Source of the DNA: an uncultured Bacilli bacterium
Lineage (GTDB): Bacteria > Bacillota_I > Bacilli_A > RFN20 > CAG-288
Length of the DNA stretch: 64,000 bases
Direction: 5' to 3'
NCBI GenBank assembly: GCA_944349335.1
Contig: CALVMW010000001.1
Coordinates: 268,309-332,308, forward strand
In this document: positions 45,478 to 53,810 of the stretch, one piece after another
Numbering within the stretch: position 1 is the stretch's first letter
Layout of the letters: the number at the start of each line of letters is the position of its first letter
Position numbers and translations under genes: made by a program
Notes under the pieces: model-generated
Told to the model about the DNA's origin: nothing
Databases searched by the model: none
The model's input: only the letters and a program-made list of their open reading frames with translations

Positions 45478-45624
45478 TATTGTATATTAACTTTATAAAA
45501 CAACTAAATGATATTTATAAAAATTGTAAAGAACAAAATCTATAATTGATTTTGTTTTATAATTTTGATATATTACTTTACACACATAATTATTTTATTT
45601 TTTCTTAACAGATAGGAGGAAAAA

Positions 45625-48132
45625 ATGGCTTTATCGATTTTTTTTAATTACACTCTCAATAATAAAAAATTCGATAACGATATCTTTTATAGCGAAGAAT
45701 TTGTCGATTTCTTAGTCACAAACTATCTTATGACTAAAAAAGACTACACAGCTAACATTTCAGAGATAAAAGACCATTTACTTAATTTCTATAAAATAGA
45801 TAAAATTAATATTAATTCATATTCATTTACTCCTTGTGAAAATATTTTTAAAAAGAAATCTTATACCCTGAAAAAAAGATATATTAATCTCTATAAAGTT
45901 GTAAAAAATAATATTCAAAAGATTAGTGAATTTAATAACGATAACGTCTATCAATATATTTTCGAAGAAGGTTCTCGTTATAATTTTAATATTCAATATC
46001 TTTTAACACTTGTTTTGTCTTTGTTTTACAATCAAAACAACGAACCATTTATTGAATTTATTCTTTTTAAAACATATCTTCATCTTCATCAATATCTTAT
46101 CTCTATTGATTATCACCTATCCTCTCTTTCAAAAGAATATAGTGGAATCTTAGTTGACAAAATGACTGATAATCAGATCATTAAAAAACTTCTTTCTGCT
46201 TTTGAAATCAAACAGCTAGGTGAATTAAGGAAATATTCACCCTTACTTATCTTATCTATCTTTTCTTATGAACTTGATGACTTTATCGATAAATTGTCTC
46301 ACATGATTCCTTTAGATTTAGAAAGTTTTACTAAGAAAATTGATGAAGCTTATTCAGTCTTAAAACCAAATGAAGAAGTGATGATTTTAGAAAAATATAC
46401 TTTGAAAGAACCGAAGAAAAAAACATTAGATGAAATAGGTAAAAGTTATGGTATCACAAGAGAAAGAGTACGGCAGATTATCAAAAATGGCATAAACAAG
46501 CTCAAAAAGCAATTTGCTAAAAATATCTACATTTATGAAGCTTGTTATCAATTAATTAAAAAGGATAAAGCTTATTTTTTAGTAGATGAACTAAGAGAAT
46601 ATTTCATCGATGAAAGTTATTTAAAAAAATACCTGATTCTTATTCTTTCTTCTGAAAGTAACCTTGTCTTTGATATCAATTACCTTATCCTCTACGATAA
46701 AAATGAAATAAATATCAATGCGATTATAAAAGAAATTGAAAAGAAGATAGGATTTACTATCCCTGAAGAGGATACTATCAATTTAAACTTATCTTATAAA
46801 GCGATTATTAAACATCATTATAGGCTCAATAATAATATTTATATAGTTGAAAACTGTTTAACTTCAAGCCTCTATAAGTTTATTTTGGACACCTACTTTA
46901 AAGAGGGCTACCTTGTCTCTTCTGAGAAAGATTTTACTTTCTTTAAAGAAAAATTAGAAAATGATTTTCATTTTAATACTTCAAAATTAAATATGCATAG
47001 TGTCCAAGCTTCTATTGAAAGATTTCCTGACTATGTACAAATAAATAGAGGAAAGTATCGCAATATTAAATATGGTCCTTCTTTAGATGACAATTTAAAA
47101 GAAGATATTTTCACATATATTAACTCTAATCCACCCATTGTCTTCTACCATACGATTTATCAAAATTTTGAAACTAAATTAAAAGCTCTCGGAATCAATA
47201 ATTCCTTTTATTTAAAAGGTCTAATCGATAGAGAACTACCCGATAATCTTCATAGTAAAAGAGATTATATTCAAATTGATGGAAAGGAAACTAGCTACAA
47301 TTATCTTATAAACTTCCTTCATTCATTCCCATATATAATTCATTATCAAGATCTTGTCGATAAGTTCCCTGGTGTCAAACTTTATACTTTTAATAACATA
47401 ATCTATAAAGAGATGAATAATGGTTTGATTTGGTTAAAAAATAAAGATCTCATATATCTAAAAAATACTTCCTTAGATGAAGAAGATAAAAAAAGATTAT
47501 TTAATATCATCACACTTTTGATGGATGAATTAGATGGAATAACAGTAAATTCTAAATCGATCTATAATGAGTTATTAAATACAGCAGATCCTATCTTAAA
47601 AAAACTTCCATTTATCACTTCTAGTTTCGATCTTTTTTCATTAATTGTCGCTCTTTTTTCTGACACTTTCTTTTTCCGTCGACCTTTTATCTATAAAAAT
47701 AAAATTGAATCATCATTTCAAGGAATAAATAATCTATACCGCTATCTAAAAACCCTTGATTCCTTTAATATAAATACAGTCATGGACTATATGCAAAAAT
47801 TGAATATCAAAAATTTAAATAGTTATTTAGCCTTAATGGATTCATTTGCTACTAATTTTGTCCAAATAGATAGTGACACAATGGTAAAAAAAGAAAAATT
47901 TAAAGCAGAAGATATTAATAAATTCTCGCAAATTTTGGAAAACTATTTTAAAACACACGACAGGATCAATACTGTGAATTTTAAAGATTTTGCAGAATTT
48001 GAAATTTTAAAGTTCAATTGGAATAAATATCTTTTAGTTGGTCTCATCCGTACATTTTATAGCGATGAATATTCGATAATCGAAACTAATAAAAAATATA
48101 ATCTAACTGATTTTATTATAAAAAAGAAATGA
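45625..48132 (+). CDS. Large protein with a central sigma-70 region-4-like helix-turn-helix
   Basis: Not recognised as a whole. The 835-residue, Lys/Asn/Ile/Phe-rich protein has one clear motif: KTLDEIGKSYGITRERVRQI at about 270-289, the DNA-binding turn of sigma-70 region 4. Before it, residues 185-240 (FEIKQLGELRKYSPLLIL) resemble the helix-hairpin-helix of the RNA polymerase alpha C-terminal domain. After it come several 60-90 residue blocks (for example about 485-560 and 560-625) that look like repeated winged helices. It has no sigma region 2, so it cannot melt a promoter. Good ribosome site TAGGAGG. It may be a regulator or a nucleic-acid-binding scaffold. Confidence 0.7.
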   Translation: MALSIFFNYTLNNKKFDNDIFYSEEFVDFLVTNYLMTKKDYTANISEIKDHLLNFYKIDKININSYSFTPCENIFKKKSYTLKKRYINLYKVVKNNIQKISEFNNDNVYQYIFEEGSRYNFNIQYLLTLVLSLFYNQNNEPFIEFILFKTYLHLHQYLISIDYHLSSLSKEYSGILVDKMTDNQIIKKLLSAFEIKQLGELRKYSPLLILSIFSYELDDFIDKLSHMIPLDLESFTKKIDEAYSVLKPNEEVMILEKYTLKEPKKKTLDEIGKSYGITRERVRQIIKNGINKLKKQFAKNIYIYEACYQLIKKDKAYFLVDELREYFIDESYLKKYLILILSSESNLVFDINYLILYDKNEININAIIKEIEKKIGFTIPEEDTINLNLSYKAIIKHHYRLNNNIYIVENCLTSSLYKFILDTYFKEGYLVSSEKDFTFFKEKLENDFHFNTSKLNMHSVQASIERFPDYVQINRGKYRNIKYGPSLDDNLKEDIFTYINSNPPIVFYHTIYQNFETKLKALGINNSFYLKGLIDRELPDNLHSKRDYIQIDGKETSYNYLINFLHSFPYIIHYQDLVDKFPGVKLYTFNNIIYKEMNNGLIWLKNKDLIYLKNTSLDEEDKKRLFNIITLLMDELDGITVNSKSIYNELLNTADPILKKLPFITSSFDLFSLIVALFSDTFFFRRPFIYKNKIESSFQGINNLYRYLKTLDSFNINTVMDYMQKLNIKNLNSYLALMDSFATNFVQIDSDTMVKKEKFKAEDINKFSQILENYFKTHDRINTVNFKDFAEFEILKFNWNKYLLVGLIRTFYSDEYSIIETNKKYNLTDFIIKKK

Positions 48133-48172: not shown

Positions 48173-48805
48173 ATGATTTATATTGTAACTAATGAAGAAG
48201 CAAAACAAGCAGATATAGATACGATAAAAAGAGGAACGCCTTCTCTAGAATTGATGGAAAGAGCAGGAAGAGGTATTTTTGAGATTCTTCAAAAAAGAAT
48301 AGAGAAAAATAAAAAAATACTTATCATCGCTGGATTAGGTGGAAACGGAGGAGATGGTTTTGTTTTAGGTCGCTATCTTTTTGAAGATAATTATGATGTT
48401 TCAATTTATCCTTTAGATGGAAAAGAAAATGAAGAAAGAAAAATAAATAGAGAACTATATAAAGGAAAAATAACAGACAAGATCGATAATTATGATTATT
48501 ATATCGATGCTATCTTTGGTATTGGACTACAAAGAAAAATAAGTGAACCTATTTACTCTCTTATATCAAAAATAAATAATTATCCAGGCTATAAAGTAGC
48601 AATTGACATTCCTTCAGGTATAAATGGAACAACTGGAGAAATAATGACAATAGCTTTTAAAGCAGATTTAGTAATCACAATTCAAAATGTCAAAATTGGC
48701 ATGTTACAAGAAGAAGCTAAAAAATATTATAAAGAATTAGAAGTTCTTGATGTTGCTATTCATGCTGATGACGAAAGTAATTTTAAGATATATAATAAAA
48801 ATTGA
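48173..48805 (+). CDS. nnrE: NAD(P)H-hydrate epimerase
   Basis: A 210-residue YjeF N-terminal domain protein that interconverts R and S forms of hydrated NAD(P)H for repair. Seen: TPSLELMERAGRGIFEIL, GLGGNGGDGFVLGRYL, DAIFGIGL and the VAIDIPSGINGTTGE loop. The dehydratase domain fused to it in many bacteria is absent. No ribosome site; TAACAT ends 6 bases before the ATG, possibly a -10 box of a leaderless mRNA. Confidence 0.9.
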   Translation: MIYIVTNEEAKQADIDTIKRGTPSLELMERAGRGIFEILQKRIEKNKKILIIAGLGGNGGDGFVLGRYLFEDNYDVSIYPLDGKENEERKINRELYKGKITDKIDNYDYYIDAIFGIGLQRKISEPIYSLISKINNYPGYKVAIDIPSGINGTTGEIMTIAFKADLVITIQNVKIGMLQEEAKKYYKELEVLDVAIHADDESNFKIYNKN

Positions 48806-52745: not shown

Positions 52746-53756
52746 TTATTTATTTAATGATTTATAGAAACTGATCAGATTTCGATATGATTTATGATAA
52801 TAATCGATAAGTTGATTCTTTAATTTTCTTGGTTTTAAAACATAGCACTCGGAGCCAAAACGACTAAAATACTGAAATAATTGATCAGAAGAACAATTAA
52901 AGAAATAATGGTCCTCCTCTATCTTATCTGGAATAGGTCTATAAACATATAAGGAGTTAAAAAGTTTTTGTCCTTTTTTAGTTAAAATAATCTCAGCTTC
53001 AGTATCAGATGAATGATAAAAATATTGTGGACCATATTTAATCATCTTCTCAAACTGATTTTTATCTTCTTTAGTAAAACTAACTGGTAAATCTGCAATC
53101 TGACAATCTTGTATTTTAGAAAGTCTAAAAGCCCGACAATAACTACCATCTTTGCAAAGCAGATAATTATATGTTTCTTCTTTAACTGCCGCAATAGCAA
53201 AGGGAGACATAAGAGTTCTATTACCTAAATTATTTTTAGTAGAGACATAAACTTGTTTATTATTTTTTATTGCCTCGAGAGCTTTTTCATATTGTTCTTT
53301 AAAAAGAATTTTTTCTCTTTGATATTGAGGTAAAGCACTATAACTATAAAAAAGTCTTCTAAAATAGTCTGATAAAGTGGATTCTAAAAGAAGATTGTTT
53401 TCTATATAATCAATCACATATGAACTCTTCTTTGTTGGTCTAAAAGATATGTAGAAAGAATATTGATCTTTTTTCTTGTAATCTCTAGAAGAACGTTTAA
53501 CTATTTTATTAATAAAGGAATCGATTTGTTTTATATCTAAACCACTATTGCTTGCTTCTTTTAAAAGACTCTCTTTTTCTTCTTTTTCTCTTTTTGAAAA
53601 AGTTTCAAAATAATTCAAAATTAGCGTATTAATAAATAAATTTTTATTAAGAGAATTATCCTTTTTTCTAAAATCAAAAGACTCTGCATCTCTATTAATA
53701 ATTTTTATTATGCTTTCTGGAACAGCTATTTTTATTTTTTCTAATAAATCAGTCAT
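52746..53756 (-). CDS. WYL-domain transcriptional regulator with ribbon-helix-helix-like N-terminus
   Basis: A 336-residue regulator. The N-terminus (IAVPESIIKIINRDAESF) resembles a ribbon-helix-helix DNA-binding segment; the middle, about 185-225 (SPFAIAAVKEETYNYLLCKD), is a WYL-type fold, which senses ligands or nucleic acids in other systems. WYL proteins often control phage-defence or DNA-damage genes; none is next to it here. Start at 53756 because AGAGGGG precedes that ATG and the upstream 53789 start has none. Function inferred. Confidence 0.65.
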   Translation of the reverse strand: MTDLLEKIKIAVPESIIKIINRDAESFDFRKKDNSLNKNLFINTLILNYFETFSKREKEEKESLLKEASNSGLDIKQIDSFINKIVKRSSRDYKKKDQYSFYISFRPTKKSSYVIDYIENNLLLESTLSDYFRRLFYSYSALPQYQREKILFKEQYEKALEAIKNNKQVYVSTKNNLGNRTLMSPFAIAAVKEETYNYLLCKDGSYCRAFRLSKIQDCQIADLPVSFTKEDKNQFEKMIKYGPQYFYHSSDTEAEIILTKKGQKLFNSLYVYRPIPDKIEEDHYFFNCSSDQLFQYFSRFGSECYVLKPRKLKNQLIDYYHKSYRNLISFYKSLNK

Positions 53757-53810
53757 AATCCCCTCTTTCTTCTTTCTTTTGATAATCACATAGTCTCATC
53801 CTTTCTGGGC

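Follow-up and report, generated by a model that had tools for sequence, protein, structure and literature searches.

A protein with a sigma-70 region 4 and a predicted rod of eight winged helices, some of whose relatives occur in defence operons

The window, that is, the whole stretch of 64,000 nucleotides from an uncultured Bacilli bacterium analysed here, carries a gene for an 835-aa protein in which a sigma-70 region 4 is the single clear sequence motif. The locus raises the question of what a protein of this size may do with one part of a sigma factor. An earlier note, made from the letters of the window, placed the open reading frame exactly where it was found in this work, and took its product for an orphan that might be an unusual regulator or a DNA-bound scaffold. 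The latter proved to be the best class of explanation, although binding of DNA along the whole length of the protein is not borne out, and the label "orphan" is wrong, as relatives exist.

Region 4 and the N-terminal third

The reading frame is intact and represents a real gene, with a strong Shine-Dalgarno sequence (AGGAGG) about 6 bases upstream of the ATG. Its GC content of 25.4% is the lowest among the 48 ORFs of at least 150 aa in the window (mean 32.4%, sd 3.2). A promoter-like site further upstream is considered weak, because such sites are no commoner in the region than in shuffled sequences. The features of the locus are as follows.

45546..45574, + strand: promoter-like site TTGATT-17-TATATT with TG upstream of the second hexamer (consensus scan, weak)
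45625..48132, + strand: gene for the 835-aa sigma-region-4 / tandem winged-helix protein (open frame, strong RBS, full-length homologues)
46132..46302, + strand: aa 170-226, five short helices, putatively alpha-CTD / helix-hairpin-helix-like (AlphaFold2 secondary structure, HHalign 25%)
46318..46521, + strand: aa 232-299, sigma-70 region 4 (4.1 and 4.2) with recognition helix TRERVRQI (Pfam, RpoD_Cterm, PDB sigma chains)
46525..46698, + strand: aa 301-358, winged-helix unit 1 (AlphaFold2, H-E-H-H-E-E pattern)
46714..46848, + strand: aa 364-408, winged-helix unit 2 (AlphaFold2)
46861..47064, + strand: aa 413-480, winged-helix unit 3 (AlphaFold2)
47089..47277, + strand: aa 489-551, winged-helix unit 4 (AlphaFold2), the most conserved part of the family
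47293..47457, + strand: aa 557-611, winged-helix unit 5 (AlphaFold2)
47479..47694, + strand: aa 619-690, winged-helix unit 6 (AlphaFold2), homologous to unit 4 by HHalign (76%)
47710..47889, + strand: aa 696-755, winged-helix unit 7 (AlphaFold2)
47905..48126, + strand: aa 761-834, winged-helix unit 8 (AlphaFold2), kept in C-terminal-only relatives

The earlier note had recognised region 4, and the profile searches agree: Pfam Sigma70_r4 matched aa 264-295 above its cut-off (E=1.2e-9), the RpoD C-terminal profile aa 216-297 (E=6e-12), and sigma chains of the PDB aa 216-295 (6e-9). By these matches, which are far beyond chance, region 4 is complete. Its -35 recognition helix (ITRERVRQI) hardly differs from the one in housekeeping sigma factors, with which the protein shares about 35% identity over regions 4.1-4.2, and the pattern [TS]RER[IV]RQ is present in 16 of the 18 family members. 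The protein differs from housekeeping sigma factors in having about 540 extra residues after region 4 and no detectable regions 1-3: none was found at any threshold used in Pfam, NCBIfam and the PDB, and region 2 gave no match at E<=10 in these libraries outside about aa 210-310. Since the core-melting regions are not detected, the protein is not a normal sigma factor, as the earlier note had also concluded.

A highly diverged true sigma factor directing its own promoters might still be considered, given that region 4 is preceded by an all-helical N-terminal third (AlphaFold2) and that Foldseek lists sigmaA chains, with weak E-values. This reading is very improbable, as regions 2 and 3 are unmatched at any threshold, a long extension C-terminal to region 4 is atypical of sigma factors, and conservation within the family is lowest in the N-terminal third, whereas sigma factors conserve region 2 most. 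The genome also has its own, separate RpoD-type gene (C1:34053). Identity as a full sigma factor was rejected, region 4 being present and region 2 not matched.

An alpha-CTD-like helix-hairpin-helix had also been proposed for this protein. The five short helices predicted just before region 4 do lie in collinear register with the start of alpha-CTD, but the HHalign probability is only 25%, the Pfam RNA_pol_A_CTD profile gave no match to the protein at E<=10, and one relative (L198) showed a sub-threshold match (E=0.08), distant from its own region 4. The resemblance thus appears weak.

The predicted winged-helix units

AlphaFold2, run for the whole protein on an alignment of 16 sequences (mean pLDDT 82.8, pTM 0.51), predicted eight tandem winged-helix units in aa 301-834, each repeating the order helix-(strand)-helix-helix-strand-strand; for aa 301-835 alone the mean pLDDT was 87.1. 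Unit 4 has 10 positions at >=90% identity across the family, and unit 8 carries the conserved residues N800, Y802 and G806. Comparison of the units by HHalign was confident only for units 4 and 6 (76% probability), the other pairs, which reached at most 18% (units 6 and 8), being too diverged for sequence methods.

Repeated winged helices had been suspected from the sequence, and structure prediction with a structure-based search, as the earlier note had suggested, gave predicted DNA-binding folds outside region 4. All 12 PDB matches of aa 301-835 at E<=1e-3 (Foldseek) come from UFL1, UFL1-DDRGK1, Dcc1/Ctf18-1-8 and SelB, which we take to be tandem winged-helix proteins; weaker matches include ESCRT-II and RNA polymerase III subunits. 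The low TM-scores (0.12-0.18 by query) indicate that the kinship lies in the repeated fold and not in the overall shape. The best matches, to UFL1-DDRGK1, Dcc1 and the C-terminal domain of SelB, share the fold of tandem winged helices, but these are eukaryotic ligase, clamp-loader and translation factors, and at 9-14% identity the likeness is a fold analogy only. A profile of aa 301-835 gave no match at E<=10 among PDB sequences, and a search for homology to a known enzyme brought nothing that speaks against a regulator or scaffold. In Pfam, NCBIfam, PADLOC and PHROGs only region 4 of the 835-aa protein was matched, the winged helices being invisible to all.

The net charge of the units lies between -4 and +2, as against +6 for region 4, the sole clearly basic part. 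From these charges, region 4 would be the likeliest firm DNA contact, and the nearly neutral rod may serve to scaffold proteins no less than to bind DNA.

Two solo relatives, L154 and L155 (in G156 and G144), have a degraded region-4 helix (KDRVRIIL) and keep the winged-helix part, which suggests that the rod works without region 4. Together with the existence of C-terminal-only forms, they point to region 4 being dispensable.

The family and its distribution

The 835-aa protein can be aligned over its full length, region 4 and then the winged-helix rod, with other members of a family that no library searched (Pfam, NCBIfam, PHROG, PADLOC) covers beyond the short region 4, as judged from profile matches. 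At least 15 full-length members were found besides the window copy: in the same genus (G013, G015 and two in G005), in the same order (G024, G030, G042, G080, G144, G153 and G156) and in the same class (G331, G349, G575 and G582). Other copies are broken (G146, G259) or cut by contig ends (G339, G524), and G089, G113, G247 and G469 have forms of 290-475 aa that consist of the C-terminal part only. The family is present in 11 of 395 sampled genomes of the class, 11 of 392 of the phylum and 4 of 15 of the genus. One profile scan of genome contigs was dominated by the region-4 pattern and captured ordinary sigma factors, and the range given is that within the sampled phylum.

Sequence identity does not track relatedness: it is 71% between G042 and G582, although they belong to different orders, and 68% between G005 and G080, although they belong to different families, while the window protein is 18-26% identical to the two same-genus copies compared. 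This indicates horizontal movement, and by these comparisons the family is patchy, fast-diverging and horizontally moving. Solo and operon-linked members are intermixed on the tree, which has limited support and several long branches. The frameshifted relative L158 (G259:C9, 7779-10495) adjoins a Cas9-like gene and Cas1- and Cas2-looking genes.

Such a mobile-looking distribution, together with weak matches of PHROG sigma profiles over region 4, might suggest a phage- or plasmid-borne protein for the take-over of transcription that was acquired by the chromosome. This explanation is hardly probable and is largely refuted by absence from viral collections: IMG/VR contigs contained no relatives of the C-terminal part, the 50,697 phage records searched gave one match, limited to aa 217-319, and the C-terminal part of an M33-linked relative was absent from 72,556 plasmids.

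In the window, the gene has cysK and cysE upstream and yjeF_N 40 bp downstream, with lipoprotein-like genes also among the flanks (names read by eye from the sequence); a PADLOC scan of the flanking cysE and yjeF_N gave no match, and the genes directly around it showed no sign of defence functions. The yjeF_N frame (48173-48805) encodes only 210 aa, whereas the open frames of its counterparts in the genus span 272-400 aa. Elsewhere in the window, a 347-aa protein (52746-53789, - strand) matches a WYL domain in PADLOC (8.7e-12), and its GC content (25.9%) is the second lowest there. In three genomes of the genus where cysKE lies near yjeF (G014, G016, G017), the interval holds dehydrogenase/aminotransferase-type genes and unrelated frames (by eye), and conserved synteny at the window site was rejected. 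The homologues in G013 and G015 adjoin pepF. The window gene thus stands outside any conserved neighbourhood and is a solo form of a mobile family.

These data bear on whether the protein is simply a solo transcription regulator of host genes, in which region 4 would sit, in the manner of an activator or sigma appropriator, on -35 DNA or the flap of RNA polymerase, and the rod would read the adjoining DNA, the defence links of relatives being incidental or derived. The complete region 4 with its intact recognition helix, the strong RBS and undamaged frame, and the fact that roughly one in two full-length members stands alone, such solo members being scattered over the tree, are consistent with such a role. 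A host regulator, however, would be expected to be retained vertically and in synteny, yet the gene occurs in under a third of the genomes of its genus and its position is not kept, other genes lying by cysKE in three relatives and the G013 and G015 homologues by pepF; the low GC of the window gene also argues against it. We regard this explanation as unlikely, but as deserving some weight.

Defence operons of relatives and possible role

The earlier note saw no partner gene next to this one. That is true of the window copy, flanked by cysK/cysE and yjeF_N, but not of the family: neighbourhood analysis in related genomes, another of its suggestions, revealed a defence context, several relatives lying beside a GHKL ATPase gene, DNA methylases or restriction genes, or heading phosphorothioate systems. 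At eight loci, the gene immediately 3' of a family member encodes the GHKL ATPase of PDC-M33. In seven of them (L144, L151, L152, L195, L196, L198, L277; genomes G005 (second copy), G042, G153, G331, G575, G582 and G524:C49) the spacing is -11 to +9 bp; the eighth, L192 (G071), has only a C-terminal piece, cut by the contig end. The genes that follow are PDC-M33A, M33B and M33C (DUF6339) by PADLOC, often with a D12 adenine methylase next. M33A is a MutL/MORC-like GHKL ATPase by its sequence. PDC-M33 is only a defence candidate in PADLOC, whose definition of it does not include the family protein, and 18 of 27 M33A loci have no family protein upstream, so it is an optional component. On plasmids of Lactococcus, Ligilactobacillus and Priestia, M33ABC adjoins restriction and methylation genes (AlwI REase and AbiG; an N-6 methylase; or MutH/Sau3AI and Dcm). 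In the open-access literature searched, neither PDC-M33 nor DUF6339 was mentioned, and an architecture with region 4 and a winged-helix rod was not described.

Some other genes recur at such loci. A small protein of 70-100 aa (NFKRISENRVSKIL..L..L.NLSN.SFYEYTDEDIEKIF), outside the PADLOC M33A/B/C profiles, is found within or beside PDC-M33 operons (L195 8074-8376, L196 4647-4913, L272 4590-4811 and others). Proteins of 247-250 aa without winged helices lie upstream of M33A at L189 (8170-8913) and L191 (8147-8899) and are similar to the 473-aa C-terminal-only relatives over the N-terminal part of the latter.

Two loci link the family to phosphorothioate systems. A full-length member at L199 (G349:C10, 1-9056) heads a Dnd/Pbe operon, lying 12 bp 5' of PbeA, which is followed by PbeC/DndD, one small unassigned gene, DndB and DndC. 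At the Ssp-type locus L160 (G247:C27, 3-9963), 325 bp separate a 473-aa C-terminal-only form from the BrxP/SspD-like gene on its 3' side, beyond which are SspB, SspC, SspA/DndA and PbeA.

The PDC-M33 operons thus have full-length relatives overlapping M33A or within 9 bp of it. The window copy differs, there being no M33 genes at its locus and none found in its genome: a profile search detected no M33A there, the control genomes of that search being silent as well, and the same profile detected M33A in 14 of the 273 genomes of the order. The gene might consequently be a leftover of a defence operon that has lost its partners, expressed or decaying without a present role. The broken relatives in G146 and G259 and the truncated one in G089 would fit this, as would the absence of a partner in the genome and the prevalence of solo over linked forms. 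The window frame, however, is intact over 2.5 kb at 25% GC, where stops arise quickly, and the protein retains both region 4 and the signature residues of the winged helices; this explanation is rather improbable.

Among known systems, MzaA resembles the 835-aa protein in having a sigma region 4, and it is part of a defence system in which a MutL/GHKL ATPase is its partner. The gene mzaA has been called a sigma factor of the validated anti-phage system MZA (mzaABCDE) (PMC9523054), and a sigma-70 non-essential domain was found in its product (PMC10924106). No such domain was seen in the 835-aa protein, which the MzaA profile matched with 33.7 bits against a cut-off of 800, and PADLOC MzaA with 20.9 bits, in both cases over region 4 only. 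Region 4 of MzaA is at its C-terminus (642-704 of 726), leaving no room for a winged-helix array after it. The genes mzaBCDE (MutL, Z1, DUF, AIPR) are not among the flanking genes, read by eye, and from profiles and neighbours together identity with MzaA was rejected.

Rods of at least two winged helices, to which the scanning of DNA or anchoring on it is ascribed in defence systems, are known in BrxA, DndG, SspB and PglW, of which PglW couples an alpha-CTD-like domain to three wHTHs (PMC10853773, PMC12839542). These proteins have at most about four wHTHs and no sigma region 4 in such an arrangement, as against eight units here, and PADLOC profiles of the BrxA, DndG and SspB type did not match the 835-aa protein, MzaA being the only match at E<=10. 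By the tests made, the protein lies outside both MzaA and the multi-wHTH proteins of BREX, Dnd and Ssp, which come nearest to it in the literature, and the family is a new form of the known multi-winged-helix defence proteins.

The explanation we prefer, at about an even chance, is that the window protein is a stand-alone member of an unnamed mobile, defence-associated family of nucleic-acid-binding proteins built of region 4 and a rod of eight winged helices. It is probably a solo copy of a DNA-recognition and scaffold subunit of mobile defence modules, whose binding of DNA and RNA polymerase, like its role in defence, we infer. Region 4 would give the protein a sequence-specific hold on -35-like promoter DNA, and might also dock on the beta-flap of RNA polymerase, as in sigma factors, while the rod would hold DNA and partner proteins. 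Relatives encoded in operons would have as partners either M33A, the GHKL ATPase, along with M33B and M33C, or proteins of phosphorothioate systems, and the outcome might be either the recognition of invading or actively transcribed DNA or the control of the promoters of the defence operon. The solo copy of the window could act as a promoter-proximal regulator or sensor, or have partners encoded elsewhere. The gene, its region 4, the predicted winged-helix array, the family, the operon linkage of relatives and the patchy, horizontal distribution are results of this analysis; they suggest that the family supplies defence modules with a targeting or regulatory subunit.

A bolder and decidedly doubtful extension is transcription-coupled immunity, in which region 4 would tether the eight-winged-helix scaffold to promoters or RNA polymerase, so that self and non-self DNA are checked where they are transcribed; operon forms would add a GHKL ATPase and methylase or the phosphorothioate machinery, and the solo copy would be a free-standing sensor. 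To our knowledge, a link of the transcription machinery to restriction-type immunity is hinted at by MzaA, and we know of no test of it. Members of this family recur next to defence modules of at least three kinds (M33, Dnd/Pbe and Ssp), and if their region 4 does bind -35 DNA or RNA polymerase, it would provide such a link. On a more modest reading, the finding supplies PDC-M33 operons with a component that had been missing and accounts for a large "hypothetical protein".
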